DNA of 35,905 bases from a bacterium. Its GTDB lineage: Bacteria; Pseudomonadota; Alphaproteobacteria; Rhizobiales; Aestuariivirgaceae. Location: positions 1 through 35,905 of the forward strand of contig JALHQC010000042.1 in assembly GCA_022842165.1 (NCBI GenBank), read 5' to 3'. The translations under genes were made by a program, and so were the position numbers. The notes beneath the pieces were generated by a model. It ran no database searches, was not told where the DNA came from, and was given only the letters and a program-made list of their open reading frames with translations. This document shows positions 1-13,917 of the stretch, piece by piece (position 1 is the stretch's first letter; every line of letters begins with the position of its first letter).

Positions 1-1266
1 TTGGTGGAACTCTACTCGCATGACGATTTCGTCAGCCCGCGCATTGACGCCGCGAAGAAGATCGTAGAGCTGCCCCGCCCTGCCGGCGTCATCTTCGCGC
101 TGATCCCCGTCACCAATCCAGTTGCGACCATATTCTTCAAGACCATTACGGCGTTGATGACGCGGAATGCGATCATTCTCTCGCCACACCCGCAGGCAAA
201 GGGCTGCTGCGCCGATGCAGCGCGCGTCCTGGCCGAGGCTGCAAAGGCCGCAGGTGCGCCCGATGGCGCCATTCAGGTGATCAACGAGCCCAACATTCCG
301 CTGCTTGAAAAGCTGATGGCGGATGAGCGGATCGACCTGATCGTGGCGACAGGCGGGCCTTCGGTCGTCAAGGCTGCCTACCGTTCGGGGAACCCTGCTT
401 TCGGCGTCGGACCCGGCAATGCGCCCGTGGTGGTGGACGAGACAGCGGACATCAAGCATGCAGCGAAGCGCATTGTTGCATCCAAGAGCTTCGACAATTC
501 CATTCTCTGCACCAATGAATCGACCGTGCTGGCTTTTGCGACGATCGCCGATCGGTTGCTCGATGCCATGAAGGCGGAGAAGGCTCACATCTGTTCGCCA
601 GAAGAGACAGACAAGTTGCGGAAGCTGCTGTTCACCGAAACGGGCTTCAACACCGCCATGATCGGCAAGGATGCCGGCGTGATCGCGCGCGAGGCGGGGT
701 TTAACGCACCGGGAGCGAAGATTCTCGTCACACCCGTCACCCTCGTGCAGGTGGAAGAGAAGCTGGTGCGCGAAAAACTCTGCCCGGTTCTGGCCTTCGC
801 GAAAGTTCAGACGATCGATCAGGCGATTTCCTGCGCGCGCTCCATGATGCGAAAGTCCGGCAAGGGGCACTCTGCTGCAATTCATTCGAAGCATGAAGCC
901 AACATCATGGCCTTCGCTGCGGCCGTCCCTGCCCTTCGCATCGCTGTGAACACGGGCTGTTCGCTGGGTGCCTCAGGCTACGAGACCAACCTCGGCCCTT
1001 CGATGACCATAGGCACCGGTTTTGCAGGCGGGTCGTCCATCGGCGACAATCTCACGCCGCATCACCTGCTGCATTTTGCGCGCATCGCCTACAACAAGGA
1101 GGCGTCCGAAATCTTCGGAAACTTCGCAGGGCTCGATCCGCTGAACCTCCCGAAGCGCGAGGCTTCTCCCGTTTCGCTCGCGGTCGACAACTCGTCTGAC
1201 GGCGAATTGCGGAAGGAACTGCGGCGTATCATTCTCGAAGAGCTCAAAGCGGTTCTGGCAGCTTGA
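1..1266 (+). CDS. Acylating (CoA-dependent) aldehyde dehydrogenase of a microcompartment, 5' partial
   Basis: EutE/PduP-like enzyme that would convert an aldehyde, CoA and NAD+ to acyl-CoA in the BMC lumen. The visible 421 residues begin inside the domain: the GVIFALIPVTNP segment (residues 29-40) normally lies roughly 110 residues into such proteins, so about 80 residues are missing and the TTG at base 1 is probably an internal codon. The catalytic cysteine is C170 in SILCTNES, and the GVGPGNAPV motif is at 135-143. A basic/acidic amphipathic helix at the extreme C-terminus (about 400-421, containing LRKELRRIILEELKAVL) after a Ser/Asp-rich linker resembles a BMC encapsulation peptide. It is the first visible gene of the shell operon, 6 bases before the next gene. 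Family assignment is firm; substrate chain length is not visible. Confidence 0.93.
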   Translation: MVELYSHDDFVSPRIDAAKKIVELPRPAGVIFALIPVTNPVATIFFKTITALMTRNAIILSPHPQAKGCCADAARVLAEAAKAAGAPDGAIQVINEPNIPLLEKLMADERIDLIVATGGPSVVKAAYRSGNPAFGVGPGNAPVVVDETADIKHAAKRIVASKSFDNSILCTNESTVLAFATIADRLLDAMKAEKAHICSPEETDKLRKLLFTETGFNTAMIGKDAGVIAREAGFNAPGAKILVTPVTLVQVEEKLVREKLCPVLAFAKVQTIDQAISCARSMMRKSGKGHSAAIHSKHEANIMAFAAAVPALRIAVNTGCSLGASGYETNLGPSMTIGTGFAGGSSIGDNLTPHHLLHFARIAYNKEASEIFGNFAGLDPLNLPKREASPVSLAVDNSSDGELRKELRRIILEELKAVLAA

Positions 1267-1272
1267 ATGTAA

Positions 1273-1872
1273 ATGGCAACGCTCCGCTCATATATCTTCA
1301 TCGACCAGCTGCAACCGCAGACGATGTGCTATCTCGGCGCCTGGATCAAGGGCTCGCTCCCGCGTACCCACATGGCCGCGCAGATCATCGAGGTGGCGCC
1401 CGGCCTCGACATTGAGGCGCTGACGGACGTGGCGCTGAAGACAGCCGAAGTTCAGGCGGGCATTCTCGTGGTCGAACGGCAGTTCGGCTATCTTGAAATC
1501 CACTCCCGCGATGTGGCCGCCGTCAAGGCATCCGCCGAAGCCGTGCTCGACGCGATGGGACTGACGCCAGACAAGGCGATGAAGCCGAAGATCCTCGCTT
1601 CAAAAATCGTGACGCGCATCGATCCGGGCCACGCATTCCTTATCAACCGCAACAAGGGCGGCTCCATGATCCTTGCCGGCGAAACGCTCTTCGTTTTGGA
1701 AACCGAACCTGCTGCCTATGCCATTCTTGCAGCCAACGCGGCGGAGAAGGCGGCGACAATCAAGATCGTCGACTACCGGATGATCGGCGCCACGGGACGC
1801 CTCTATCTTTCGGGAACGGAATCCGAAGTGCGTGCCGCCGCCACGGCTGCCGAACAGGCACTGGAGCTGTGA
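1273..1872 (+). CDS. BMC-T (tandem BMC domain) shell protein 1
   Basis: Shell protein of 199 residues with two consecutive BMC domains (about 1-95 and 100-195). Such proteins form trimeric pseudohexamers in the shell, often with a gated pore. The first repeat carries IIEVAPGL and VERQFGYLEIH, and the second carries INRNKGGSMILAGET and MIGATGRLYLSG. It is paralogous to the other BMC-T in this operon (2844-3497), which shares the ERQFG-x-LEIH block and the gene-end motif. The ATG at 1273 lies 6 bases after the aldehyde dehydrogenase stop. No clear Shine-Dalgarno sequence precedes it, so translation may be coupled. By order it would correspond to the mycobacterial RMM protein I recall as MSM0275; that correspondence is from memory. 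Confidence 0.93.
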   Translation: MATLRSYIFIDQLQPQTMCYLGAWIKGSLPRTHMAAQIIEVAPGLDIEALTDVALKTAEVQAGILVVERQFGYLEIHSRDVAAVKASAEAVLDAMGLTPDKAMKPKILASKIVTRIDPGHAFLINRNKGGSMILAGETLFVLETEPAAYAILAANAAEKAATIKIVDYRMIGATGRLYLSGTESEVRAAATAAEQALEL

Positions 1873-1873
1873 A

Positions 1874-2272
1874 ATGGCGCTAAGACCCGAGATGAGCAAC
1901 GAACTCCGCAGCATGGTGCGCGACGTGCTGCGCGAGGTGATGGCGAGCCGCAGTCAGGCTGCATCCGCAGCAGCGGTCGAGACGGTTCGCATTGCGAATG
2001 ACACTGACCTGGCGGCTTTCGTCGCGCGCATCATTGATCCGGCGCATGCCGAAAAGATCCGGTCTGGAAAGCTCCGCTTCACTCTTGGCCATTCCACACC
2101 TGCAACGCTGCCCACTTCATCTTCCGAGGTGTTGACCGGCGTCATCACCGAACAGAAGATCGACAGGTTGTCACCTCAGGCCGCGCTCGTTCTGGGGCCC
2201 GGTGCCGTGCTTACCCCGCTGGCGCGAGACAAGGCGCGGCGGCTTGGCCTCAAAATCGAAAGGAGACGCTAG
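1874..2272 (+). CDS. BMC-associated small protein with N-terminal encapsulation-like helix
   Basis: Protein of 132 residues with no enzyme signature that I recognise. Three parts can be seen. Residues about 9-22 (LRSMVRDVLREVM) form an amphipathic helix strikingly like the encapsulation peptides of PduE/PduP. A low-complexity Ser/Ala linker follows to about 35. A compact core ends in a C-terminal block (AVLTPLARDKARRLGLKI) of a kind found at the ends of several BMC-locus proteins. It sits between BMC-T and BMC-P with 1 and 0 base spacers, matching the unnamed gene at the same position in the mycobacterial RMM locus as I recall it. The start at 1874 has weak ribosome-binding sequence (GGAGCTG); an alternative ATG at 1892 would put the helix at the very N-terminus. 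Likely a lumen scaffold or cargo adaptor (inference). Confidence 0.8.
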   Translation: MALRPEMSNELRSMVRDVLREVMASRSQAASAAAVETVRIANDTDLAAFVARIIDPAHAEKIRSGKLRFTLGHSTPATLPTSSSEVLTGVITEQKIDRLSPQAALVLGPGAVLTPLARDKARRLGLKIERRR

Positions 2273-2527
2273 ATGCTGAAGGCGACGGTAACGGGCCGCA
2301 TCTGGTCCACGAAGAAAGTCTCGGAAGTGCCTGCGGGATCGATCCTCGAGGTTCTCGTGGACGATTCGAATTCCCGGCTTCTTGCCTTCGATCCGCTGGG
2401 ATGTGGGGAAGGCGAGAAGGTCATCATCGCCACAGGCTCGGTCGCAGCCGCGTGGTTTCCCGGAAAATCGCCACCCATCGATGCGCTGATCATTGGATCG
2501 ATCGATGAAGCGTCAATCAAGAAATAG
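2273..2527 (+). CDS. BMC-P pentameric vertex protein (EutN/CcmL family)
   Basis: Protein of 84 residues, the normal length for EutN/CcmL vertex proteins, which form pentamers capping the corners of the icosahedral shell. It starts with the family pattern of a beta-strand and G-x-I-W-x-T-K ([10 protein letters not shown], 6-15), and has [10 protein letters not shown] (43-52) and TGSVAAAWF in the middle, and [10 protein letters not shown] near the end. The ATG directly abuts the preceding stop codon, with AGGAG about 10 bases upstream, so it is co-translated with its neighbours. Only this one BMC-P gene is visible; RMM-type loci are recalled as having a single vertex protein. Confidence 0.94.
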
Positions 2528-2552
2528 TCAAGCGTTCAACACGGAGGACACC

Positions 2553-2834
2553 ATGAGCAACGCAATCGGAATGATCGAAACCAAGGGCTATGTGGCGGCA
2601 ATGGCCGCGGCGGATGCCATGGTGAAGGCCGCGAACGTCACCATCGTGGGACGCGAGCAGGTTGGCGACGGACTTGTCGCCGTCATCATCAACGGCGACG
2701 TCGGTGCCGTGAAGGCCGCGACCGAGGCCGGTGCCGAAGTGGCGGGCCAGGTCGGCACGCTGGTTTCGGTGCATGTGATCCCGCGTCCGCATGCGGATGT
2801 GTCGAAGCACTTCTCATCCGGCACCTCGAAGTAA
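2553..2834 (+). CDS. BMC-H hexameric shell protein
   Basis: Canonical single-domain shell hexamer of 93 residues (PduA/EutM family) with [19 protein letters not shown] at 5-23 and the beta-strand/pore region [15 protein letters not shown] at 32-46. The pore loop, usually K-I-G-S-G, reads Q-V-G-D-G here: Gln replaces Lys at position 36 and Asp39 replaces Ser. That should make the pore mouth acidic rather than basic. The ATG at 2553 is chosen because GGAGG lies 7 bases upstream and the domain begins right after it; the longer in-frame opening from 2493 overlaps BMC-P. It is the only BMC-H visible, so it probably supplies most shell facets. Confidence 0.95.
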
Positions 2835-2843
2835 ACCAGAGTC

Positions 2844-3497
2844 ATGCCGACGCCACGCACGGCGGCGAAGGGAGAGCTCCGGGTTTTTCTCAATGTGGAA
2901 AACCTGCAGCCGCAATTTGCCGCCTATATGGGAACGCCGACGCGGGCACGGGGCTATCCGCCCTATGCCGGTCAGCATGCGCTGATCATCGAGGTGGCAC
3001 CCGGCCTGATGATCGAGCGGGTGATGGACCTCGCGCTGAAAGCCGACCCCGATCTCGAGCCTGGAATTCTCTTTGTCGAGCGGCAGTTCGGCATTCTCGA
3101 AATCCACGGGAGCGACAGGGACAAGCTGATGGCTGCGGGCCGCGCCGTGCTGAAAGGCATGGCACTGACCGAGGGCGACCAGCTGGCGCCGCGCATTCTC
3201 TTCACCGACGTGATCGAGAACATCGCCGACCAGCACGCGGTGATCATCAACCGCAACCGGCAGGCCTCAATGGTGATGCCGGGCGAGACGCTGCTGGTGT
3301 GCGAGATGGTGCCTGCGCTTTATGCCGCCATAGCCGCGAACGAGGCGGAAAAGGTTGCCCCGAAGCTGACGCTCGTCGATGTGCAGATGATCGGCGCAGC
3401 GGGACGGCTCTACATGTCCGGCAGAACCGAAGACGTGGAACGGGGGCTTGCGGAGATCGAGCGGGTTCTGGCAGGAATCGAGGGACGCAAAGCCTGA
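2844..3497 (+). CDS. BMC-T (tandem BMC domain) shell protein 2
   Basis: Second two-domain shell protein, 217 residues. Its repeats carry LIIEVAPGLMIERVMDLAL and VERQFGILEIHG in the first half, and INRNRQASMVMPGET and MIGAAGRLYMSGR in the second. It aligns along its length with BMC-T 1 (1273-1872), so the two arose by duplication and have diverged. It differs by a longer, proline-rich N-terminal segment (about residues 1-30). It lies 9 bases after BMC-H and 11 before the kinase gene. Position matches the protein recalled as MSM0271 of the mycobacterial RMM shell. Two BMC-T with one BMC-H and one BMC-P is the full shell inventory of that type. Confidence 0.93.
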   Translation: MPTPRTAAKGELRVFLNVENLQPQFAAYMGTPTRARGYPPYAGQHALIIEVAPGLMIERVMDLALKADPDLEPGILFVERQFGILEIHGSDRDKLMAAGRAVLKGMALTEGDQLAPRILFTDVIENIADQHAVIINRNRQASMVMPGETLLVCEMVPALYAAIAANEAEKVAPKLTLVDVQMIGAAGRLYMSGRTEDVERGLAEIERVLAGIEGRKA

Positions 3498-3508
3498 CGG
3501 AGAGAGCC

Positions 3509-4519
3509 TTGACCGATTTCGACCTGCTCGCCCACGAGGAACAGATGGCGATTCTGCTGGAGGTCGCGCAGGCCGCTTTGCCGCGTTACGACCTTCCCGC
3601 GGGCGCCCGCGTTTCGCTGCTCAATCTGTCGGAAAACGCCACGTACAAGGTCGAAGCGCCAGATGGGCGCCGCTGGGCTCTGCGCGTTCACCGCGACGGC
3701 TATCATTCGCGCACCGCCATTGCATCCGAACTCGCCTGGCTCATGGACCTTCGGCAAACGGGTGTTGTCGCCACACCAGTGCCGGTGAAGGGCCGCGATG
3801 GCGAGATCATTCAGGATGTCGAGCACGTGTGCCTTCCCCGCCCGCGGCATGTAGTGCTTTCGGAATGGGAAACAGGTGCCGAACCCGGCATTGGCGAGGA
3901 TCTTTCCCAGCCCTTCGAGATGCTGGGCGAAGTGACGGCCCGCATGCATGTGCATGCACGGCAATGGAAGCGGCCTCCCTGGTTCACGCGTCTGACGTGG
4001 GACTTCGACACGGCGCTGGGCGAAGACAAGCCGCATTGGGGGCGCTGGCGGGATGGCGTCGGCATGGATGCGGCGAAGGAAAAGCTTTTTGCGCGGACGG
4101 TTGACCTCATCGGGGCACGGCTCAAGGCCTATGGCAAGGGACCGGAGCGCTTCGGCCTCATCCATTGCGACCTTCGCCTGGCCAATCTGCTGATCGACGG
4201 CAAGGCCGTGAAGGCCATCGACTTCGACGACTGCGGGTTCGGCTGGTACATGTATGACGCGGCGACGCCTGTCTCATTTTATGAGCATGAGCCGCAAGTG
4301 CCGGGGCTGATCGAATCCTGGAAGACGGGCTATCGCAAGGTGCTGGCGCTGCCCAAGGCCGATGAGGATGAGATTCCGACCTTCATCATGCTGCGGCGCA
4401 TTCTGCTGGTGGCCTGGATTGCATCGCATATCGAGGCCGAATTCCCGAAATCGCTAGGTGCCGGCTATACCGACGGCACCCTGCCCTTGTGCGAGGATTA
4501 TCTGCGAAAGTTCTCCTAA
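3509..4519 (+). CDS. APH-fold phosphotransferase, candidate amino-alcohol (1-amino-2-propanol) kinase
   Basis: Aminoglycoside-phosphotransferase/choline-kinase-fold enzyme of 336 residues. The catalytic loop is HCDLRLAN (219-226), the metal site DFDD (238-241), and the N-lobe ATP-contact strand ALRVHR (57-62). It is the last gene of the BMC operon, as in mycobacterial RMM loci, where the equivalent enzyme phosphorylates (S)-1-amino-2-propanol before a PLP phospho-lyase makes propionaldehyde. That function is transferred from the family, not shown here, and no phospho-lyase is visible in the window. I chose the TTG at 3509 because GGAGAGAG lies just upstream and the spacing to BMC-T 2 is 11 bases; ATG at 3545 is the alternative. 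Its stop overlaps the convergent SDR stop by 4 bases. Confidence 0.85.
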   Translation: MTDFDLLAHEEQMAILLEVAQAALPRYDLPAGARVSLLNLSENATYKVEAPDGRRWALRVHRDGYHSRTAIASELAWLMDLRQTGVVATPVPVKGRDGEIIQDVEHVCLPRPRHVVLSEWETGAEPGIGEDLSQPFEMLGEVTARMHVHARQWKRPPWFTRLTWDFDTALGEDKPHWGRWRDGVGMDAAKEKLFARTVDLIGARLKAYGKGPERFGLIHCDLRLANLLIDGKAVKAIDFDDCGFGWYMYDAATPVSFYEHEPQVPGLIESWKTGYRKVLALPKADEDEIPTFIMLRRILLVAWIASHIEAEFPKSLGAGYTDGTLPLCEDYLRKFS

Positions 4520-5286
4520 GCCTGCGCCAGAGCGTCGAGGCTTTCGGGAAGAATCTGGCCGCCATCGACAATGATGGTCTGGCCGGTCACATAATTCGCC
4601 TCTCTCGAGGCGAAGTAGAGCGCGGCATAACCGATGTCCTCGACCTGCCCCAGCTTCTTCAATGGCACCGACGCCGCCATCGATTTCTGATACTCTTCGC
4701 CCATGCCGGCGAGGCCTTCGGTAACGATGTTGCCGGGCATCACGGCATTGACCGTGATGCCGTATTTCGCAAGTTCCATGCAGGCAGTGCGCATGAAACC
4801 AAGCTGGCCGGCCTTGGTCGCTCCATAATGCGTCCAGCCGGGAAAGCCGGTGACGGGGCCGGTGATCGACGAGGTGATGACGATGCGGCCCTGGTCGGAC
4901 TTCTTGAGGTAAGGTATAGCCGCCTTCACCGAATGGAACGTGCCTTTCAGGTTGGTGTCCACCACTTCGTCCCACTGATCGCCCGTCATCTCCTCGAGCT
5001 TCGCTGGCGGAAAGATTCCAGCATTGGCGCAGAGCACATCAAGGCCGCCATTGCGATCCGCCACGGTTTTCATGGCGCTTTCCATGCTGGCGAGCGAAGT
5101 AACGTCACCCCCGATGCCAAACGCGCCGTGACCAATTTCCTTTGCCGCTGCTTCCGCCTGATCGGCATGGCGCGACATGATGGCGACCCTGGCGCCCGCC
5201 TGCGCAAAAACGCGCGCGATGCCCTTGCCTATTCCCTTCGACCCGCCGGTGACGAGGACGGAGCGGCTCTTGAGCGATTGTGTCAT
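4516..5286 (-). CDS. SDR-family NAD(P)-dependent dehydrogenase, candidate amino-alcohol dehydrogenase
   Basis: Classical short-chain dehydrogenase of 256 residues. TGGSKGIG (13-20) is the nucleotide-binding motif, NAG is at 88-90, and the catalytic residues are S140, Y154 and K158. The C-terminal YVTGQTIIVDGG is typical of the FabG-like group. It is the last gene of the long - strand operon that starts with the diol dehydratase, and its stop overlaps the stop of the BMC operon kinase gene on the other strand. RMM/AAUM microcompartments use an SDR that interconverts aminoacetone and 1-amino-2-propanol, so this is the natural candidate for that step here (inference from context). About 27 bases separate it from the permease gene upstream in the operon. 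Confidence 0.85.
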   Translation of the reverse strand: MTQSLKSRSVLVTGGSKGIGKGIARVFAQAGARVAIMSRHADQAEAAAKEIGHGAFGIGGDVTSLASMESAMKTVADRNGGLDVLCANAGIFPPAKLEEMTGDQWDEVVDTNLKGTFHSVKAAIPYLKKSDQGRIVITSSITGPVTGFPGWTHYGATKAGQLGFMRTACMELAKYGITVNAVMPGNIVTEGLAGMGEEYQKSMAASVPLKKLGQVEDIGYAALYFASREANYVTGQTIIVDGGQILPESLDALAQA

Positions 5287-5313
5287 GATCTACCTCCCAT
5301 AAGACAGAACGTT

Positions 5314-6120
5314 CTATTCGACGGCCTTGGCGCGGCGCATGGCGAGTATCGCGCCGTAGCCGCCAATCAGCAGTATGGCCGCGCCGACGGTCGAGACCGT
5401 GCCAAGCACGGGGACGCCGGGCGTGTAGCCGGCCACCATCTTGGCATAGAGATATTCGGGCACTGTCGTATCCGCACCGGTTGTAAACAGCGAAAGCGGG
5501 AAATTGCCCCAGGACAACAGAAACGCAAACAGCGCGCCTGAAAACAGACCCGGGAACAGGACCGGCAGCGTCACTTCCTTCAGGACCTGCCAGCGCGTGG
5601 CGCCGAGATCGAAGGCTGCCTCTTCCAGTGCCGGATCGAAGCTGTAGACCTGGATTGAGATGACGAGCGTCACCACCGGAATAATCCAGACGAGATGGGC
5701 GAACACCGCCGTCTGCCAGGAGAGCGAGAAGCCAAGCGTGTTGAACCACAACAGCAAGGCCAGGCCCAGCACCGACTGCGGAAAGAAAATCGGCAGCAGG
5801 ATGAGCTTCTGGTAGATGGAACGCCCTTTCCATTCATAGCGCGCGAAGGCCAGCGCGCCGAAGAAGGCGATCGTCACCGCGATCGCCGTGACGCAGAGTG
5901 CAATGGTGATCGACGTTGACAGCAGTTGCCGGATCTCGATCGAGCTGAAAGTCTTCTGCCACCAGTCGAGCCCCCATTTGTTGATCGGGAACTGGAAGTA
6001 GCGGCTGGCCGTCAGCGAAGCCAGAGTGATGCAGATTGTCGGAAGATAGAGAAAGACGAGGACGGCGAGCGTCCACACAGTGACGAGCGAATGGCGAAAC
6101 CTCTGGCCCCTGGTTTCCAT
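5314..6120 (-). CDS. ABC transporter permease, PotC-like (transporter 1)
   Basis: Inner-membrane permease of 268 residues with about six hydrophobic segments, beginning with the long one at residues 12-32. The cytoplasmic EAA loop is EEAAFDLGATRWQVLKEVTLP at roughly two-thirds of the length. It belongs to the spermidine/putrescine-type (PotC) group of binding-protein-dependent permeases. The ATG at 6120 is preferred over an upstream in-frame ATG (6267) because the earlier one lies inside the neighbouring permease gene; the spacer to that gene is 4 bases. It pairs with the PotB-like permease (6125-6967), the ATPase and the binding protein upstream in the same operon. Confidence 0.92.
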   Translation of the reverse strand: METRGQRFRHSLVTVWTLAVLVFLYLPTICITLASLTASRYFQFPINKWGLDWWQKTFSSIEIRQLLSTSITIALCVTAIAVTIAFFGALAFARYEWKGRSIYQKLILLPIFFPQSVLGLALLLWFNTLGFSLSWQTAVFAHLVWIIPVVTLVISIQVYSFDPALEEAAFDLGATRWQVLKEVTLPVLFPGLFSGALFAFLLSWGNFPLSLFTTGADTTVPEYLYAKMVAGYTPGVPVLGTVSTVGAAILLIGGYGAILAMRRAKAVE

Positions 6121-6124
6121 AGGG

Positions 6125-6967
6125 CTATCTCCGCCCCAGGAAGGTGTCGAGATCGAAGCGGCGCAGCGCGAGCAGCACCAGGACGCCGACGACCAGCATG
6201 AGCAATACGGACAGCGCAGCGCCCAGCGGCCAGTTTTGCGAATAGGTGAACGCGATCTCGATGTCATGCGTGATGGGGATGACGCGCTGCCCCCCTAGAA
6301 CCTTGGCTTCGGCGATGGCACCAATCGCCAGCACGAAGGTCAGCAGAAAGCCGATCACCACACCGGGCATCGACAGTGGCAGTTCCACTTCCTTGAAAAC
6401 CTGCCAACGCGAGGCGCCGAGATCAAACGCCGCATCGCGCGTTTCGTTCGGCACCATGGAGATACCAAGCGTCATCGGGAACAGCATGAAAGGCAGATAG
6501 ACATAGACCATCCCCAAGATGATGGCGGGCAGCGAGAACAGGATGCTTTCCAGTTGCAGTCCGAACATCGACTTCAGGGTGCCGAGCAGAACGCCGTTCT
6601 TGATGAGGAACAGCACCCAGCCATAAAGTCTAATGTTTTCCGATACAAAGAGCGGAATGGTGAAGAGAAGAGTGAGCAGCATGGCCCACTTGCCGAAGAC
6701 GCGCACGAGGCCATAGGCAACGGGGTAACAGACGAGCGCCAGCAGGGCGACGGCCGTCACCGCGAGAGAGAGCGACCACAGAAAGGAAATGTAGTTCGTG
6801 CCCTGGAAGATGGTCGCATAGTTCTCCAGCGTCGGCGCGCCGCCGAAGGAAAAACTGCGCGGCGGCATGAAGCTGAACCAGATGACGGCCAGCAGAGGTG
6901 CTGCAAATCCGACGATGAGAAACAGCACGACTGGTATTGCGGATTTGCCGCCCTGACTCAATCTCAT
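6125..6967 (-). CDS. ABC transporter permease, PotB-like (transporter 1)
   Basis: Inner-membrane permease of 280 residues. The first membrane segment (about 11-33) follows a short basic N-terminus, and five further hydrophobic segments are visible. The EAA loop reads RDAAFDLGASRWQVFKEVEL near residue 185. The order in the operon (binding protein, ATPase, PotB-like, PotC-like) makes a complete importer of the polyamine/opine/cationic-compound group. It is separated by 4 bases from each neighbour, so the three transporter genes are almost certainly co-translated. The exact substrate cannot be read from the permease sequence. Confidence 0.92.
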   Translation of the reverse strand: MRLSQGGKSAIPVVLFLIVGFAAPLLAVIWFSFMPPRSFSFGGAPTLENYATIFQGTNYISFLWSLSLAVTAVALLALVCYPVAYGLVRVFGKWAMLLTLLFTIPLFVSENIRLYGWVLFLIKNGVLLGTLKSMFGLQLESILFSLPAIILGMVYVYLPFMLFPMTLGISMVPNETRDAAFDLGASRWQVFKEVELPLSMPGVVIGFLLTFVLAIGAIAEAKVLGGQRVIPITHDIEIAFTYSQNWPLGAALSVLLMLVVGVLVLLALRRFDLDTFLGRR

Positions 6968-6971
6968 GAGA

Positions 6972-8039
6972 TCAGTCCGTCACCAGAATGGCGTCTTTCG
7001 CGTCCCAGCCGATGATCACATCGTCATCCAGCTTTCCCGTGAAGGCCTGCTGGCGGAGTTTCTCGACCGCGAAGACGCCTTCACCCACGCGCACCTGGTA
7101 TTGGATGCGCGAACCCAGGACATATTCATTGTAGAGGCGGCCCGAAACCGCGTTGTCCGCATCCGCCGCCTTGGCGAGAAAACGCAGGAACTCCGGCCTG
7201 ATGACGAGATGGCCTTCGCTGAAGCCTTCAGGAACCGGCGGCGGTTTCAGTCTCGCGCCCGTCAGCCTGGAATGAAGGCGGCCATCGGTATCGAGCGAGA
7301 CGGGCAGCACATTCACGTCGCCCACGAATTCGGAAACGAAACGGGTGTTCGGCGCGGAATAGATCTGATGCGGCGTGCCGACCTGCACCAGTTTGCCAGC
7401 GCGCATCACGCCGATGCGGTCGCTCATCACCATCGCCTCTTCCAGCGAGTGCGTGATATAGACGAAGGTCTTCTTCGTCTCGCGATGGATGTCCTTCAGT
7501 TCCTTCTCGAGAGTCTTCCGCAGTTTGTAGTCGATGGCGGAGAGCGGCTCATCGAAGAACAGAATCTGCGGGTCGTAGGCGAGTGCGCGGGCAAGCGCCA
7601 CGCGCTGCCTTTCGCCGCCCGAACACTTCAGCACGTTCTTGGCATAGTAGGATTGCGGCAGGCGCAGAAGATCCATCAACTGAAGCGCACGGGCCTTGCG
7701 GCTCTCCGGCACCTCGCCCCTGATCTTCAGCGGAAACTCGATGTTCTGCCCAACCGTGCGATGCGGAAACAGGGCAAGCGACTGGAACACCATGCAGGTG
7801 GGCCGCTTGTTGGCCGGCAAGTCATTGATGCGTTCGCCACGCAGCAGGATGTCTCCGCTCGTCGGCGTGTCCATGCCGGCAAGCATGCGGAGCATGGTCG
7901 TCTTGCCTGAACCGGATGGACCAACGATGGTGAAGAACTCGCCTTCCGCAATATCGAGATCGATCGAGTCGACGGCGGCATGGGCGCCGAACATCTTGCG
8001 GACGGACTTCAAGGAAAGGATGGGCGATGCTTCGGCCAT
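6972..8039 (-). CDS. ABC transporter ATP-binding protein, PotA-like (transporter 1)
   Basis: ATPase of 355 residues. Walker A is GPSGSGKTT (40-48), the signature is CSGGERQRVALARAL (139-153), Walker B is ILFFDEP (159-165), the H-loop is in YITHSLEEAM, and a TOBE-like regulatory domain fills about 240-355. The signature begins with Cys where Leu is usual (LSGGQ). The ATG at 8039 is chosen because the conserved domain starts immediately after it; the reading frame stays open further upstream but runs into the intergenic stem-loop. This is the only PotA-type ATPase in the window, so it may also energise the ATPase-less transporter 2 (14187-16918), which is inference. Confidence 0.93.
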   Translation of the reverse strand: MAEASPILSLKSVRKMFGAHAAVDSIDLDIAEGEFFTIVGPSGSGKTTMLRMLAGMDTPTSGDILLRGERINDLPANKRPTCMVFQSLALFPHRTVGQNIEFPLKIRGEVPESRKARALQLMDLLRLPQSYYAKNVLKCSGGERQRVALARALAYDPQILFFDEPLSAIDYKLRKTLEKELKDIHRETKKTFVYITHSLEEAMVMSDRIGVMRAGKLVQVGTPHQIYSAPNTRFVSEFVGDVNVLPVSLDTDGRLHSRLTGARLKPPPVPEGFSEGHLVIRPEFLRFLAKAADADNAVSGRLYNEYVLGSRIQYQVRVGEGVFAVEKLRQQAFTGKLDDDVIIGWDAKDAILVTD

Positions 8040-8069
8040 GCGGTTGGTCGTTCTCTCTCGATCAATGCA

Positions 8070-8097
8070 CAACCCCTGCGAAAAACCGCAGGGGTTG
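8070..8097 (-). promoter_or_regulatory. Intercistronic stem-loop between binding-protein and ATPase genes
   Basis: A perfect 11-base-pair stem (CAACCCCTGCG and CGCAGGGGTTG) encloses a 6-base loop. It lies 18 bases after the solute-binding-protein stop and about 30 bases before the ATPase start. It could stop part of the transcripts or protect the binding-protein mRNA from 3' decay, giving more binding protein than ATPase. No long T-run follows, so an mRNA-stabilising role is as likely as termination. Confidence 0.7.
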
Positions 8098-8115
8098 GCG
8101 ACGTGGTATCGATAA

Positions 8116-9282
8116 TCAGCCGGCGGAGGCTTCGCGCTTGGCCGCGGACATGATGTCGAGCAGCTTGTCATAATCCGGAACGATATCATATTCCGCGCAG
8201 CGGCCCATTTCCTCGGCGAGGCTGTCCCACTGGATTGCATCCAGCTGCTCGGCTGTAAACAGCTTGAAGCAATCGGGATTGCCCATCTGGGCTACCGGGT
8301 TGAAAGTGCCTTCCGCGAAAGCCACGGTGTGGGCGATATCAGGCGCCTGCACATATTCGAGGAAGTCCGCCGCCAGAGGCGAAAGCTCGGGATTGTTGAC
8401 GGTCGAGGTGATCTCGATCCAGGCAACGCCACCCTTGCCGCCCGCCATCGGGCCGGACTTCGGCGTGATGCCGCGGATTTCCGGATGTCCGTCGGCCCGG
8501 GCCGGAGAAGCGGAATAGGTGCCACCCGTCATATGGAAGTCGATCTCGCCCGCGATCAGCGACTGGTTCATGGTCGCGATGTCGCCCACCACCTTGGCGC
8601 CCTTGAACACGCGCTTGGCGGTTTCCGTGAACTTCGCCACTTCATCGTCACTATGGACCTTGAAGGGATCGAAGCCAGCGATCAGGCAGATGTTGAAGAC
8701 GTTCCAGTCGTCCGACTCGAGGATGCCGTATTTGCCGGCATTGGCCGGATCGTTCCACAGGTTCCAACCCTGATCCTCGGCGGCGGCGCGGCTGATCTTG
8801 TCGGTGTTGACGACGTAGCTGTAGGGCCCAAAGCGCTGCGCCATGCCGAGAAGTTCGGCTCCCGCCTCATCCATGGCCCATTTGTAGGGCGCCTTGAACT
8901 CCGGCATCATGCTGCCGAAGAAGGGTTCGAAACGGCCGCGGTCCAGCGGCTTGATCAGCTTCTCGGGGTGCATGACCTTGCGCGCCCAGGGATTGTTGAC
9001 GTTGATCAGATCCCAGACATTGGTTTCGCCGGCGCGCAGCCGGTTGATCATGGTCGGGTCGTTCGTCAGCGACTCGGCCTTGACCGTTGCGCCCTTGGAC
9101 GTGCGGAACGGGTCGAGCACCTGCGCGGAATTGTATCCTTCCCAGCACAGGATGTTCAGTTCCTTTTCGCGCGCCGCGAACGCCTGCCCCGGCAGCACGC
9201 TGCCGGCGCCCGCAAAGGCGGCGGCCCAAAGAGCCGACTGCTGCATGAAGTTGCGGCGTGAAATCTTGCTGCTGTTCGCCAT
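8116..9282 (-). CDS. Extracellular solute-binding protein, PotD-like, Tat-type signal (transporter 1)
   Basis: Periplasmic binding protein of 388 residues. The N-terminus has a twin-arginine motif (SRRNFMQ, 8-14), then a hydrophobic stretch and a likely cleavage site after GQAFA near 35, so export in folded form is likely. The mature start ELNILCWEGYNS matches the PotD-family opening strand with the aromatic substrate-cage Trp and Tyr. Later motifs include GPYSYVVNTDKIS and GGVAWIEITS. ATG 9282 has GGGAG 8 bases upstream and puts the Tat motif in place; the longer in-frame opening adds a non-signal sequence. It presumably delivers a cationic or amino-group substrate to the PotABC-like components downstream. 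Confidence 0.92.
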   Translation of the reverse strand: MANSSKISRRNFMQQSALWAAAFAGAGSVLPGQAFAAREKELNILCWEGYNSAQVLDPFRTSKGATVKAESLTNDPTMINRLRAGETNVWDLINVNNPWARKVMHPEKLIKPLDRGRFEPFFGSMMPEFKAPYKWAMDEAGAELLGMAQRFGPYSYVVNTDKISRAAAEDQGWNLWNDPANAGKYGILESDDWNVFNICLIAGFDPFKVHSDDEVAKFTETAKRVFKGAKVVGDIATMNQSLIAGEIDFHMTGGTYSASPARADGHPEIRGITPKSGPMAGGKGGVAWIEITSTVNNPELSPLAADFLEYVQAPDIAHTVAFAEGTFNPVAQMGNPDCFKLFTAEQLDAIQWDSLAEEMGRCAEYDIVPDYDKLLDIMSAAKREASAG

Positions 9283-9389
9283 GTCCACACTCCCTGATGT
9301 TTTTTCCGGTGTGCCTTCCTGTTGGAAGTCCCACATCGAATTCAGCACTAAAACTTCATCCGAGTAAAGAGCGATTCCGCAGTTGGCTG

Positions 9390-10085
9390 TCAGGCATTCT
9401 TAGTGTAGCCCGCAAGTTCACCCGACGACATGACGTGGCAATAGATCATGTTGATGATCTCGAGCTCCCTGTCGTGCAGATCGTCATTGGCCGCGGCGCA
9501 GCAGTCTTCCAGCACGATGACGCCGTAGCTTTCGTCCGCCAGGCTGCGCACGGTCGAGGACACGCATTGGTCCGTGAAGATGCCGCAGCAGATCACCGTC
9601 TTGATACCGAGATTATGCAGGATGAGCCGCAAATTCGTGCCAGTGAGTGCTGAATCCGTGGTTTTCGTGACTACGATTTCATCACCTACCGGCAGCAAGG
9701 CATTCACGATTTGCGAGGGCAGCTCATTCTTCGGCAACAGCAGATTGTTCCACCCCGGCATTTTCTGGGACAGCGAACGGTCGCGGCCATCCTTTGTGTG
9801 GCAGGCGATGCGCGCGAAGATGCACTCGATGCCAGCGCGGCGTGCAAAGTCCAACATTTTCGTCGTGTTCGGGATGACCGAGTTTCTCATGCGGCCGTGG
9901 AACGGCGTCCACAAATCATACCGACGCTGCTCTTGCGGAGAGAGCGTAGCCCGGTCCGGACGCTCGAGATAGGTGTTCTGGATATCGATGACGAGAAGGG
10001 CCGTCTCGCTTGGCACGATGACGGGATCATCGGGTTCGGGTGCTCCGTCATAGTAAAGTGAGCGGCGGGCCGTCTTCCAGTTCAT
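9390..10085 (-). CDS. Isochorismatase-fold cysteine hydrolase
   Basis: Protein of 231 residues with the complete catalytic triad of the isochorismatase-like hydrolase family: D34 in LLVIDIQNTYL, K141 in VVTKTTDSALTGT and C174 in CGIFTDQCVSS. Cysteine-containing members are mostly amidases (nicotinamidase, N-carbamoylsarcosine amidase, ureido/peroxyureido-acid amidases), so release of ammonia from an amide or ureide is likely. It sits 9 bases after the dehydratase small-subunit gene and 107 bases before the binding-protein gene, so it probably trims the imported substrate or a side product of the dehydratase pathway. The specific substrate is not visible. Confidence 0.88.
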   Translation of the reverse strand: MNWKTARRSLYYDGAPEPDDPVIVPSETALLVIDIQNTYLERPDRATLSPQEQRRYDLWTPFHGRMRNSVIPNTTKMLDFARRAGIECIFARIACHTKDGRDRSLSQKMPGWNNLLLPKNELPSQIVNALLPVGDEIVVTKTTDSALTGTNLRLILHNLGIKTVICCGIFTDQCVSSTVRSLADESYGVIVLEDCCAAANDDLHDRELEIINMIYCHVMSSGELAGYTKNA

Positions 10086-10094
10086 GACTTATCC

Positions 10095-10514
10095 TCAGAA
10101 GCGATAGGTATAAAGGCCGCGCGCCTCGTAGGTTTCCGCCGCCTCTTCCACGAAGTCCGCCATGCGGGTGGCGCCATGAACAGAGCGGAGCGTAGCCGCG
10201 GCATCGAGAATCTGTTGCTTCGAACCCGCGCGGCCGGGCCGCAGAAGCTCATAGACCTGCATGATGAAATCCTGCGGCACGTTCACCAGTTCGGCGGCGC
10301 GCTCGAAGTTCAGCGCCAGGGTGGGGCGGCCGGCATCGCGCGATATCCCGGCCTGCGCCTTCAGCGCATCAGGCGTGATGCGCAGATCCTCCATGGTGAT
10401 GCCGCCGGCGAGGACGGCGTCGAGGGTGATGTCGCTCAAGCGTTTGCCGCGCGTTCCGATGATGTCGTCCGGCTGGGTTTCGGCCAGGGGATAGTCAGCA
10501 CGGGTGCGCGTCAT
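10095..10514 (-). CDS. B12-dependent diol/glycerol dehydratase, small subunit (PduE/DhaE-like)
   Basis: Protein of 139 residues whose core closely follows PduE. It has DYPLAETQPDDI (7-18), LSDITLDAVLAGGITMEDLR (26-45), ITPDALKAQAGISRDAGRP (46-64), NFERAAELVNVPQDFIMQVY (69-88) and LLRPGRA. Small subunits of Pdu systems carry an N-terminal encapsulation helix ahead of the YPL motif; here only six residues precede it, so that helix is absent. Its start overlaps the stop of the fused large/medium subunit gene by 4 bases (ATGA), which fits coupled translation of a fixed-ratio complex. Confidence 0.95.
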   Translation of the reverse strand: MTRTRADYPLAETQPDDIIGTRGKRLSDITLDAVLAGGITMEDLRITPDALKAQAGISRDAGRPTLALNFERAAELVNVPQDFIMQVYELLRPGRAGSKQQILDAAATLRSVHGATRMADFVEEAAETYEARGLYTYRF

Positions 10515-12781
10515 GGCCTTGCTCCCGCAAAGCTCACCTCGACGAGTTCGGGCGTAGCGCCCTCTTCCGTCAGTCCGGTCTCGATTGCATAGATCATCGC
10601 CGTGCGGGCGTGATAGCGCGAGCCCATCGCCTCGCCGCGTTGCGGCACGACCACGGGCTCCGGCATTTCGCCAAGCGCATAGGCCGCGGCATTGGCGCCA
10701 AGAGCCCGGTAGTGATCGATCATGGTGATGGGCGCATTGGAAAAGAGTTCGAGGTTGTTATGCGGCAGGCGGCCACGCTGATGAATGACTGCCGTGCCTT
10801 TCGCCTGTATGCCGATGCCGAGTCCGGATCCCGCCAATCCCGCGGCCGAGAGCCCCAGGAACGAGGTGTCCGCCGTGTGGCGGAAGCGCACGATGCGCGG
10901 AACGAGACCACGCTTGCGGATCGCCTCCATCATCACGGACAGAAGTTCCGAAAGCCGATGGCCCGCCGTGGTCTGGAACAGCTTGACGCCGAAGGCCGGG
11001 CTGATGCCGATCACGATATCCCTGGCATCGTCCGACGGACCGGCGGCTCCGGCATTGCGATACCGAATACGGCGGGACTCCTCCTTCTCGTGCATGGCTT
11101 CCGAGCGCAGCACTTCCTTCTGGTCGAGGACATCGCGGATGCCGTTGATGCCCTGACGGCGCTCTTCGCTCACGCGGTAGCCGGTGCCGGGGCCGAGGTA
11201 ATCATTGGGGTCGTTCACGGCACTGGTGATGCGGCCATTGCGGATCATGGCGGAGGTCTGCAGATAGTCGCCCGAGACGCGCAGCTTCACCACATTCAGC
11301 AGGTTCTCGGCCTCGTCGCGGAAACCTCTTCGCGCCAGCGCCTTGATGACATCGATGACCGTGATACCCTTGTCCTTGATCGCTTCGCTGATGAAGCTCA
11401 CGTCGCGCGGCATGAAGCTCCGCGTCTCGTCGGAGCCCGAGGCGACCGTGACGCTCTGTTTCATGTCGGCGGTGGGCGCGGCGAGGCCAAGTTCCTCAAA
11501 AACGGCCGATACCGCCTCGACGGCGCGGCTTCTGAGATCGAGGGCGCGCTCCTCGGGTAAGGGCGTGAGGCCGCCATCCGCCTCGAAGTCGCGCTGCAGC
11601 ACGAGATAGTCCTCGAGTTCCTCGCCATTCAGGAGCGAAGGGTTGAAGGAGTTGTCGTATTTGAGGATCGACCCGAAGCCGGAGCAGATGAGATCGGAAC
11701 CGGCGATCAGATAGGGAAGGATCTTTGCGCCAACGCGGATTTCGGATTCCGTCGAGCGCGCATCGTTTCCTGACGCGCATTCGAGATCGAGCCAGACCGC
11801 GATGAGGTTTTCGGCCATCAGCTCGCGCACGCCGCCGGGGATTGTGGCTGTCAGCGGCGCTCCGTCAATGCCGCCGTTCTGTGTGCCCTGAACGCCCATG
11901 CCGCGTTGCAGGCAGAGGCAGCGCGCTTCGAGATAAAGCAGGGATTTCGCCTCGTGAAAGCCCATGAGCAGTTCGGAGCCGGCACCGGAGGTGCAGCGCA
12001 TCTTGATGCCGCGCGAGGCATAGGCAGCGGCGAGGAAGGCCTTGGACCATGGCGTATCATCGCCATCGATGAAGGTTTTTTCGGTGCCGTAGACCGACAC
12101 GGTCTCGGCATAGGAGGTGAAGCCCGCCATGCCGATGCGGAGTTCCTCGGCTTCTTCGCTCGAACACTGAAACAATGTGCCCCAGCGGCCCACGGCACCG
12201 CCCACCGCGCAGGCAAGTGCATTCGACCAGGCATTGCGCGAGACCCGCATCGTCGTCTCGATCTCGTCGAATCCGAATGCGACTGCGGTTGCCGCATCGG
12301 CGGCAAGCTGCAGGGGATCATCCTTGGCATTGGTCACATGCGCCTGATTTCCGGGCGTCTTGCGTGCGCGCATCTTGGAATAGGCGAAAGCGATTTCGAG
12401 TGCGTTGAGATGGGACACGACTTCCGCCAGTTTCGCGGGCGTCATGCCATGGGCGAGGCGCACGAGATCGGCGCGCGGCACATTCATGTCGACCAGCATC
12501 CGCGCGACATGCTTCGAATCGAGAGCCATCGCCTCGGGCGCGATGCCGACGTCGATGTGGTGGCGCGCGATGAAGCGGTCGATCATGTCGAAGTCGTGCT
12601 CGAGCACGCCGTCAAGCGCCGTCACCCGGCCGCCGCTGATCGCCAGTCCGGGCTTCGGGTCGGCGGGGCTCGTGAAGGCTGAAAAGCCGTTGGCCGGATC
12701 TTCGGCTGCGAACCGGTCCAGCCGCAGCGGCCGCTCATCCCAGTCGGCGTAGCGTTTCCAGCGGTTCGAGGTCGGTGTCAT
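10511..12781 (-). CDS. B12-dependent diol/glycerol dehydratase, fused large and medium subunits (PduC-PduD-like)
   Basis: One chain of 756 residues joins the radical-bearing large subunit (about 1-553) to the medium subunit (about 584-756) through a charged linker. It would use adenosylcobalamin to convert a vicinal diol to an aldehyde. The active-site and metal ligands of Klebsiella PduC (Q141, H143, E170, E221, Q296, D335, S362) all recur with a constant +5 shift: Q146, H148, E175, E226, Q301, D340 and S367, in motifs such as GNQAHVTN, FDEIETT and LDLECASGND. The medium part has IVIGISPAFG and GSGLGIGIQAKGTAVIHQRG. The usual N-terminal encapsulation helix of PduD is missing because that domain is fused. 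ATG 12781 is chosen at the start of homology, with GGAG upstream. First gene of the - strand operon; no reactivase gene follows. Confidence 0.95.
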   Translation of the reverse strand: MTPTSNRWKRYADWDERPLRLDRFAAEDPANGFSAFTSPADPKPGLAISGGRVTALDGVLEHDFDMIDRFIARHHIDVGIAPEAMALDSKHVARMLVDMNVPRADLVRLAHGMTPAKLAEVVSHLNALEIAFAYSKMRARKTPGNQAHVTNAKDDPLQLAADAATAVAFGFDEIETTMRVSRNAWSNALACAVGGAVGRWGTLFQCSSEEAEELRIGMAGFTSYAETVSVYGTEKTFIDGDDTPWSKAFLAAAYASRGIKMRCTSGAGSELLMGFHEAKSLLYLEARCLCLQRGMGVQGTQNGGIDGAPLTATIPGGVRELMAENLIAVWLDLECASGNDARSTESEIRVGAKILPYLIAGSDLICSGFGSILKYDNSFNPSLLNGEELEDYLVLQRDFEADGGLTPLPEERALDLRSRAVEAVSAVFEELGLAAPTADMKQSVTVASGSDETRSFMPRDVSFISEAIKDKGITVIDVIKALARRGFRDEAENLLNVVKLRVSGDYLQTSAMIRNGRITSAVNDPNDYLGPGTGYRVSEERRQGINGIRDVLDQKEVLRSEAMHEKEESRRIRYRNAGAAGPSDDARDIVIGISPAFGVKLFQTTAGHRLSELLSVMMEAIRKRGLVPRIVRFRHTADTSFLGLSAAGLAGSGLGIGIQAKGTAVIHQRGRLPHNNLELFSNAPITMIDHYRALGANAAAYALGEMPEPVVVPQRGEAMGSRYHARTAMIYAIETGLTEEGATPELVEVSFAGARP

Positions 12782-12912
12782 GACGCATGCTCCAGTCGCG
12801 GCCAAGACTATGGGAGTGCGTAACGAGATACAACGGCCCTGAAGCTGCCGAAGCCGCTGCTTGCAACCCAGTCACGGCCCGCTTATCTGACGGGAAAGGC
12901 GAGGTACTGGCC
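12782..12912. promoter_or_regulatory. Divergent intergenic region likely holding promoters for the dehydratase operon and the flavin oxidoreductase gene
   Basis: These 131 bases separate two divergently transcribed genes, so each probably has a promoter here. I see no convincing -35/-10 pair and no B12-riboswitch elements (such as the conserved B12-box) in either orientation. GGAAAGG lies upstream of the + strand gene and GGAG upstream of the - strand gene as ribosome-binding sites. Confidence 0.4.
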
Positions 12913-13917
12913 ATGGTTTCTCTTTCCGTTCTCGATCTCGTTCCGGTCATCGAAGGCGGCACGCCGCGCAACGCGCTGCTTGCCGCGCGCGATCTGGCGC
13001 GTCATGCCGAGCATCTCGGCTACACCAGGTACTGGGTGGCCGAACACCATAACATGCCGGGCATCGCCAGCGCAGCCACAGCGGTGGTGATCGGGTTCAT
13101 TGCCGGCAACACCGCCACGATCCGTGTCGGCGCCGGCGGCATCATGCTGCCCAACCACTCTCCACTCGTCATCGCGGAACAGTTCGGCACGCTCGAATCG
13201 CTCTACCCGGGGCGCATCGACCTAGGGCTGGGCCGCGCCCCCGGAACCGACCGGCAGACGCTGGCCGCATTGCGGCGCGATGCATCCGCCGCCGAAACCT
13301 TCCCGCGGGACGTCGTCGAACTGCAGGCATTGCTTGGCCCTCTGCAACCGGGGCAGACCATCCAGGCGGTGCCCGGCAGCGGGCTCAATGTGCCGCTCTG
13401 GATCCTGGGGTCCAGCCTCTTTGGCGCGCAGCTTGCGGCCATGCTGGGGCTACCCTATGCGTTCGCGTCGCACTTTGCGCCCGATGCCCTGATCGATGCA
13501 CTGCACATCTACCGCGAGCGCTTCGAGCCCTCGCTGCAACTTGATCGGCCTCATGCCATGGCCGGCGTGAACGTCATCGTGGCGGATAGCGATGAGGAAG
13601 CGAGGCGGCTGTTCACCTCCCTGCAAATGCGCTTTGCCGACATGTTCCGCAATGCGCGGGGCTTGATGAAGCCGCCCATCGACGACATCGAAACCTACTG
13701 GACGCCCGCGGAAAAAATGCAGGCTTCGCGCATGCTGGCCTGCAGTTTCGTAGGCTCGCCCGAAACCGTGGAGCGGGATTTGCGGAGCTTCGTCGCCAGG
13801 ACGGGCGCCAACGAACTGATGGTTGCCTGCGCGGTCCACGATCAACGGGCGAAATTGCGCTCCTTCGAACTGCTCAAAGGGCTGAACCTTGCAGCGGAGG
13901 GCCGCGCCGCCGCGTGA
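12913..13917 (+). CDS. LLM-class (luciferase-like) flavin-dependent oxidoreductase
   Basis: Protein of 334 residues resembling YhbW/MsnO8-type members of the bacterial luciferase-like superfamily, which use reduced FMN. It opens with SVLDLVPV and shows [17 protein letters not shown] (the EHH motif after the first barrel strands), [20 protein letters not shown] and [11 protein letters not shown], all diagnostic of this subgroup. The end has the [15 protein letters not shown] segment seen in the family. ATG 12913 is preferred to an in-frame ATG at 12787 because homology starts there and GGAAAGGCGAGG precedes it. It stands alone, diverging from the dehydratase operon; a link with that pathway is possible but unsupported. 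Confidence 0.9.

Follow-up and report, generated by a model that had tools for sequence, protein, structure and literature searches.

Among described bacterial microcompartments (BMCs), the closest to the locus considered here are those of the RMM type (Rhodococcus and Mycobacterium microcompartment), whose route, also met under the names Aut and Aaum, is the use of 1-amino-2-propanol or aminoacetone (PMC6620236, PMC8007038). RMM loci that include a diol dehydratase, its genes lying on the opposite strand, were defined as RMM2 by Axen et al. (2014, PMC4207490), and RMM2 was retained as a type by Sutter et al. (2021, PMC8217296). From the opposite strand, Axen et al. conclude that the dehydratase is not used by the RMM2 shell, and give a bifunctional shell as the alternative. 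Here, we describe a locus of this kind from an alphaproteobacterium of the Aestuariivirgaceae. It occupies positions 1 to 12781 of a stretch of 35905 bases (the window), which is the whole of contig C42 of its genome. Our preferred reading, to which we assign a probability of about 55%, is that this is an RMM2-type locus in which the B12-dependent dehydratase would act upstream in the RMM amino-alcohol pathway, rather than being an accidental neighbour of the shell.

Open reading frame (ORF) lists and Pfam scans resolve the locus into two gene runs. The plus strand carries an RMM-type shell operon, in the order aldehyde dehydrogenase (AldDH), BMC-T, a protein of encapsulation-peptide (EP) type, BMC-P, BMC-H, BMC-T and APH kinase. 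The minus strand carries a dehydratase/importer operon: 5' to 3', fused dehydratase, small subunit, isochorismatase-family hydrolase, binding protein, Pot-like ATPase, two permeases and a short-chain dehydrogenase/reductase (SDR). The two are arranged tail to tail, with the kinase ending at 4519 and the SDR at 4516. This inventory agrees with that of an earlier note on the same DNA, which had described a convergent RMM-like shell operon and fused diol dehydratase operon. Two of its labels hold in part: the AldDH, called acylating, belongs to PF00171 and has acetylating enzymes as its best PDB matches, but all its scores against the NCBIfam acylating models are below cut-off; and the importer, called PotABCD-like, has Pot-like components, but the likeness appears loose, all NCBIfam matches shown being below cut-offs. 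The start of the AldDH is found on contig C15, which ends in the same 119 bases with which the window begins, and the AldDH start reads in frame across them. Upstream of it on C15 is a gene for a class III aminotransferase-type enzyme dependent on pyridoxal phosphate (PLP; 77415-78698), 87% identical to the PLP gene of the related locus L006, and divergent from this PLP–AldDH–shell operon is a DeoR-family regulator.

The locus shares with RMM2 the shell set (BMC-T proteins of the MSM0275 and MSM0271 kinds, BMC-H and BMC-P), the AldDH, a phosphotransferase/kinase, an SDR, the class III PLP gene (here on C15) and diol dehydratase genes on the strand opposite to the shell. Among ancillary genes, RMM2 has an amino acid permease, whereas the window has a Pot-like ABC importer (the related loci L006 and L022 do have an APC permease); RMM2 has a GntR regulator, whereas DeoR stands beside the PLP gene here; and the pairing is in print for Actinobacteria, whereas this locus is alphaproteobacterial. 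The earlier note had supposed an undescribed BMC class. Because an RMM locus with a diol dehydratase is already in print as RMM2 (Axen et al. 2014, PMC4207490), that claim falls: the locus is a real, conserved variant of RMM2, as judged by gene content, and not a new class.

By its sequence relatives the shell is of RMM type. The two BMC-T proteins have the RMM shell proteins MSM0275 and MSM0271 as their best PDB relatives, and for BMC-H, MSM0272 ranks second, behind a BMC-H tandem fusion protein. The SDR matches 3rih first (299 bits) and then 6ci8 and 6ci9; the kinase matches 6ef6, the next best entry scoring 59 bits. We take 6ci8/6ci9 to represent the RMM dehydrogenase, and 6ef6 the RMM kinase, studied by Mallette and Kimber. 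For shell proteins, SDR and kinase alike, proteins of RMM1, the aminoacetone utilisation microcompartment of Mycobacterium smegmatis and Rhodococcus, rank first or close to first among the PDB matches. The gene order AldDH–BMC-T–EP protein–BMC-P–BMC-H–BMC-T is also that of Rhodococcus jostii RHA1 plasmid pRHL2, which, unlike the window, has no dehydratase within the 40 kb read. On pRHL2 (L095, 20001-25490) the shell genes occur twice in tandem, both copies bearing identical protein accessions, on either side of a gene for a class III aminotransferase; an ethanolamine permease and an isochorismatase-family gene follow downstream.

The dehydratase shares its family, subunits and diol-binding residues with the B12 diol and glycerol dehydratases of the propanediol utilisation (PDU) metabolosome. 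It departs from that system in its fused large and medium subunits, its changed pocket, its RMM shell and the lack of a reactivase among the genes found. The PDU medium subunit is a separate protein with an N-terminal encapsulation peptide, whereas here it is joined to the large one, and no PduL- or PduQ-type family was seen among the 40 window ORFs scanned with Pfam. Within the 764-residue frame, PF02286 matches at 15-563 (717 bits) and PF02288 at 602-715 (71 bits). PDB entries for alpha–beta fused glycerol dehydratase chains (9vi2 and its kin, apparently engineered) have the same fusion order and align over residues 6-747; these keep the canonical Ser301 pocket, whereas the fusion in the window is natural.

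Relatives came from a scan of GTDB contigs, from which we took the best 80 of 145 loci (dehydratase 67-89% identical), a choice that favours near relatives of the query; they were mapped with protein queries, and single loci with a GC-position gene caller. Nearly all records among them that are named to class or below are Alphaproteobacteria. In the alignment of this clade, Q141, H143, E170, E221, Q296, D335 and S362 are unchanged, E221 presumably being an active-site residue. The other six are named as active-site or substrate-facing in PMC7674605. Around them the pocket has changed. D301, G302 and S373 (S301D, C302G, M373S) are invariant in all 82 clade sequences with data (the window, 79 loci, Shinella and Agrobacterium; L051 gave none), and Q336 is replaced by A, T or C; positions 301, 302, 336 and 373 lie outside all six peptides used to find the relatives. 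By comparison, S301 and C302 are kept in 7/7 unfused dehydratases and 2/2 alphaproteobacterial paralogues (Ser301 in 9/9), position 373 is M (L in G148), and Q336A occurs in both of those paralogues. One of the two paralogues is a second fused diol dehydratase in the window's own genome (G000:C3:117067-119169; L002, L098), 48% identical, which has the canonical S301, C302 and M373; genes for an NAD aldehyde dehydrogenase and for a family III CoA-transferase come before it. When glycerol binds in the pro-S pose, its C3 hydroxyl is directed at Ser301, and kinetics are given for S301A and Q336A (PMC7674605). A literature search found no report on an amino-diol dehydratase or on this pocket, a weak negative given that most subscription journals were outside its reach.

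No match to the reactivase PduGH (PF08841) was found in the window's genome. Among 47 dehydratase genomes (L011 and L061 not covered) none has PF08841 above cut-off, one giving a weak match of 20.8 bits; in 14 control genomes the same search found the family in two, above cut-off in one. Reactivation is hypothesized to proceed by a swap of the beta subunit, and an engineered alpha–beta fusion better resisted inactivation in cell lysate, with further work said to be needed (PMC7674605). A fusion should block such a repair, which fits the absence of the reactivase.

With these residues in mind, we propose that the substrate would be a 1,2-diol with a cationic group, 3-amino-1,2-propanediol for example, held by Asp301. 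The dehydratase would turn it into an amino-carbonyl compound, which would be aminoacetone in the version of the pathway that uses every enzyme, or alternatively 3-aminopropanal. The SDR would convert this to an amino alcohol, the kinase would phosphorylate the amino alcohol, the PLP enzyme would eliminate ammonia and phosphate to leave an aldehyde, and the AldDH, perhaps taken into the shell by its C-terminal helix, would carry the aldehyde on to an acyl-CoA. Direct ammonia-lyase action of the dehydratase on 1-amino-2-propanol was also considered, and is disfavoured because the diol-binding residues are kept. The N-acyl or N-carbamoyl substrate suggested earlier finds nothing in its favour beyond the family of the hydrolase. 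A bolder version, which we hold only tentatively, is that the clade forms a new branch of the family: an amino-diol dehydratase, naturally fused and free of a reactivase, in which Asp301 holds the ammonium group and whose product, aminoacetone, would feed a kinase/phospholyase route with or without a shell.

Kinase/PLP and dehydratase chemistries could both yield the same aldehyde. A bifunctional organelle might therefore take 1-amino-2-propanol through the kinase and PLP enzyme, and 1,2-propanediol through the dehydratase, both to propionaldehyde and the shell-borne AldDH. The intact diol-binding residues suit this scheme, which corresponds to the bifunctional RMM2 shell that Axen et al. name as the alternative (PMC4207490). 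We nonetheless think it unlikely: three pocket positions differ in 82/82 clade sequences, a second fused dehydratase with S301, C302 and M373 is retained in the window's genome, and the enzyme set persists in Mesorhizobium, Shinella and Agrobacterium with no shell or such AldDH in view.

A class-wide draw speaks for shell and dehydratase belonging together. In 385 alphaproteobacterial genomes, drawn evenly, the dehydratase (67-100% identity) is present in seven and an RMM BMC-T in 11; seven have both and none has the dehydratase alone. Here G148, an eighth match at 44% identity and with the S301/C302 pocket, is not counted as a dehydratase genome, and G163 is counted on a partial match. Leaving out the window's genome, Fisher's test gives 4.9e-11 by genome and 2.9e-6 by genus, four of the seven genomes being of one genus. 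Matches to the kinase occur in 27 genomes and reach at least 40% identity in 22 of them; all seven dehydratase genomes are among these 22 and so nest within the kinase genomes. The genome search for co-occurrence that the earlier note had proposed thus finds the dehydratase with shell and kinase in 7/7 cases: the arrangement recurs in many genomes, and the co-occurrence is far above chance.

Strand arrangement, on which Axen et al. based their judgement, varies among the relatives. A shell is present in 20 of the 80 loci, many of the remaining 60 being short contigs. In 11 of the 20, shell and dehydratase are on opposite strands (seven convergent, as in the window, and four divergent), and in nine, unlike RMM2 as published, they are on one strand (L041, L043, L046, L053, L073, L074, L077, L079 and L083). 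Five of these nine (L041, L046, L077, L079 and L083) have the single run permease–SDR–kinase–PLP–AldDH–shell–amidase–dehydratase–small subunit; in L073, a gap of 9 bp separates the BMC-T match from that of the dehydratase, and in L043 and L053 an AraC-type gene intervenes on the other strand. In the divergent loci (L058, L068, L071 and L072), a DeoR gene, 44-49% identical to that of the window's genome, lies between the shell and dehydratase operons. The nine co-directional loci and the DeoR between divergent operons weaken the strand argument against joint use. That the dehydratase genes are mere neighbours, ignored by the shell pathway, could still draw on the opposite strands of the window and 11/20 shell-bearing loci, and on the 25 of 48 dehydratase genomes described below that have no shell; set against the one-strand loci, several of them closely spaced, and the presence of shell and kinase in 7/7 dehydratase genomes of the class-wide draw, we consider it very improbable. 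The 7/7 co-occurrence, the co-directional loci (five of them one long run) and the shared position of DeoR support the joint pathway that had been suggested for this DNA, and it is likely that shell and dehydratase serve one.

The wider set recurs as well. Among the 43 loci with full flanks, SDR and kinase are present in 32, a PLP gene of either type in 32, an amidase or class I glutamine-amidotransferase in 33, and an APC or Pot-type importer in 38. Comparison of these gene maps shows the dehydratase, small subunit, an SDR, a kinase and a class III PLP enzyme as a recurrent set, in most cases accompanied by a hydrolase and an importer. The class I glutamine-amidotransferase stands in for the isochorismatase-family hydrolase in L027 (12693-13427), L031 and L038, and accompanies it in L040 and L048. 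Together with the glutamine-synthetase-like genes of L042 and L054, described below, the stand-ins hint at gamma-glutamyl or other amide forms.

The shell itself is optional. We searched the whole genomes behind 50 of the 60 shell-less loci (48 genomes; L011 was left out, and L038 and L080 share a genome). An RMM BMC-T is present elsewhere in 23 and in none of the other 25, among them all seven Mesorhizobium searched, Azospirillum halopraeferens, Roseovarius spongiae and Ancylobacter polymorphus, so that the cassette is not tied to the shell; this contrasts with the 7/7 of the class-wide draw. On a FastTree phylogeny of 83 dehydratases (70 of known state) there are at least 10 changes of shell presence, a count in which incomplete metagenome-assembled genomes (MAGs) inflate absence. 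All nine Mesorhizobium loci retain dehydratase–small subunit–amidase–APC permease–SDR and kinase–PLP, in the order of shell-bearing L006 minus exactly six genes, BMC-T to AldDH, between the kinase and PLP genes. Shell and acylating AldDH thus form a removable six-gene module atop a recurrent enzyme set. Plasmids of Shinella and Agrobacterium have, on one strand, a sugar ABC importer, dehydratase, small subunit, UgpC, SDR, APH kinase, class III PLP enzyme and GntR, with no shell or amidase gene in the 26 kb read; in a BMC-T search of the plasmid collection, which covered plasmids only, neither of them matched.

The kinase/PLP step takes two forms. In the Hyphomicrobium-type enzyme (PLP2), the best PDB matches are the phospholyases 5g4i (381 bits) and 6tor (355 bits), the next scoring 182, and the Shinella and Agrobacterium PLP proteins are 57% and 53% identical to it. 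The Shinella kinase aligns with positions 10-339, and the Shinella PLP enzyme with positions 584-1010, of a single NCBIfam model of 1015 residues, and those of L080 likewise match its N- and C-terminal parts, which suggests that the two occur elsewhere as a single protein. The same dehydratase is therefore found with two dissimilar kinase/PLP pairs and with dissimilar SDRs. This favours steps that follow one another, although a looser association could explain it too. If instead the dehydratase made 3-aminopropanal from an amino-diol, an aldehyde dehydrogenase would continue and kinase and PLP enzyme would act in parallel on other amino alcohols. This would be normal diol dehydratase chemistry, and an aminobutyraldehyde-dehydrogenase-type gene does follow the kinase in 4/80 loci; that of L025 scores 792.6 bits against subfamily NF010000 (cut-off 615) and 746.3, below the cut-off of 909.3, against equivalog TIGR03374. 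In loci L065-L067 and L070, a gene for an NAD aldehyde dehydrogenase lies upstream of that for the dehydratase. However, in L023 and L025 a second Pot-type importer comes after the aminobutyraldehyde-type gene, which may belong to that importer; the enzymes of L065 and L070 fall below every cut-off of the amine-type models; and the scheme gives no reason why genomes without a shell should keep SDR, kinase and PLP enzyme alongside the dehydratase. We rate this scheme somewhat below even the bifunctional organelle.

Several observations weigh against placing the dehydratase upstream in the amino-alcohol pathway. To our knowledge, no diol dehydratase has the regiochemistry that the aminoacetone version demands, which is opposite to the usual one. 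Asp301 could instead bind a neutral polyol, and the Rhizobiaceae plasmid operons have a sugar-type importer. The Shinella SDR is only 30% identical to that of the window, and its kinase and PLP enzyme belong to different subfamilies, so that the likeness there goes no further than enzyme class. The PLP enzyme of the window's own genome (type 1) has aminotransferases as its best PDB matches, at about 184 bits, and is not close to the phospholyases. No encapsulation peptide was seen, by eye only, on the linker or small subunit of the dehydratase, and no cobalamin riboswitch was found in the window at gathering score. By the thresholds used, 11 of the 43 full-flank loci have no kinase (one, L080, has another APH protein). 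Two Roseovarius loci (L042, 6646-9172; L054, 7354-9882) have D301-type dehydratases beside genes for a glutamine-synthetase-like protein and an iron alcohol dehydrogenase, with what looks from its proteins to be a Liv-type importer and without the kinase set. The NAD aldehyde dehydrogenase of L065-L067 and L070 and the 25 genomes without a shell belong on this side as well. So does the class-wide draw in part: 4/11 shell genomes and 15/22 kinase genomes are without the dehydratase, three of these four shell genomes (L108-L110) having no kinase, PLP, SDR or dehydratase gene in the 19 kb read, and looking like another variant.

If the dehydratase does act upstream, the conclusion in print that an RMM2 shell has no use for its dehydratase is reopened, and a clade of B12 dehydratases gains a concrete, testable change of specificity. 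Related lineages with and without a shell around the same enzymes would make the purpose of the shell testable by growth and aldehyde leakage; were the amino-diol branch real, Mesorhizobium would amount to an experiment of nature in which the shell has been removed and the rest of the pathway left intact. A natural fused dehydratase without a reactivase could also be useful where inactivation limits diol dehydratases.

Table 1. Genes of the two operons, with window coordinates and the matches behind each assignment.
Feature	Position	Strand	Basis
Acylating-type AldDH, C-terminal 421 residues, cut by contig start	<1..1266	+	PF00171; best PDB matches are acetylating acetaldehyde dehydrogenases
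BMC-T shell protein, MSM0275-like	1273..1872	+	phmmer, 292.8 bits to 5l39
EP-type protein; amphipathic helix resembling an encapsulation peptide at the N-terminus, TPLA motif at the C-terminus	1874..2272	+	Homologues share both ends
BMC-P pentamer (EutN/CcmL)	2273..2527	+	PF03319, 58.5 bits
BMC-H hexamer, MSM0272-like	2553..2834	+	PF00936; 5l38, 140.8 bits
BMC-T shell protein, MSM0271-like	2844..3497	+	5suh, 286.7 bits
APH-fold kinase, probably amino-alcohol kinase	3491..4519 (start approximate)	+	PF01636; 6ef6, 292.4 bits
SDR, probably amino-alcohol/aminoketone dehydrogenase	4516..5286	-	6ci8/6ci9, 287/286 bits
PotC-like permease	5314..6120	-	PF00528; PotC 125 bits, below cut-off
PotB-like permease	6125..6967	-	PF00528; PotB 139.9 bits, below cut-off
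PotA/PhnT-like ABC ATPase	6972..8039	-	PF00005, PF08402; NCBIfam matches shown all below cut-off
Periplasmic binding protein, distantly PotD-like	8116..9282	-	PF13416, 36 bits; PotD 23 bits
Isochorismatase-family cysteine hydrolase, amidase type	9390..10085	-	PF00857, 114.8 bits; nearest NCBIfam BiuH, 72.9 bits (cut-off 370)
Diol dehydratase small subunit	10095..10514	-	PF02287, 146 bits
Fused diol dehydratase large+medium subunit; S301D, C302G, Q336A, M373S	10511..12781	-	PF02286 + PF02288; alignments

The EP-type protein has no Pfam or NCBIfam match, and its 22 homologues (21 distinct) have the same two ends. Its N-terminus has the highest hydrophobic moment (0.73) of the 16 proteins scored. 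The C-terminal helix of the AldDH resembles an encapsulation peptide by eye, and its moment of 0.56 does not set it apart; with the dehydratase N-terminus at 0.64, the measure failed to discriminate and was dropped as a test. Both proteins may be held inside the shell by these end helices. In L108 (9781-10626), L109 (8735-9592) and L110 (8817-9677), all of one shell-bearing genus, the two conserved ends of the RMM EP-type protein, the one like an encapsulation peptide and the TPLA one, are separated by an inserted stretch. In L108 this is a SnoaL-like domain (PF12680, 67 bits), and by eye the other two have the same. Might the EP protein have become an enzyme carrier there?

No 8-10 base word is shared between the 157 bases upstream of the PLP gene and the 170 upstream of the dehydratase. 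The LuxA-like neighbour of the dehydratase (12787-13917) is matched in only one of the 80 loci (L021), and was left out of the locus. The dehydratases of L067 and L070, one from a contig binned with the gammaproteobacterial Halieaceae and the other from a Paracoccaceae MAG, are almost identical on the tree, reflecting either misbinning or very recent transfer. Further along the window, two adjoining EutQ-like cupin genes (PF05899; 18338-19071) lie behind a second binding-protein importer and a glycosyltransferase, with no evidence tying them to the BMC locus, and a multi-PAS histidine kinase of the HWE family (32405-34723) is encoded close to the contig end.

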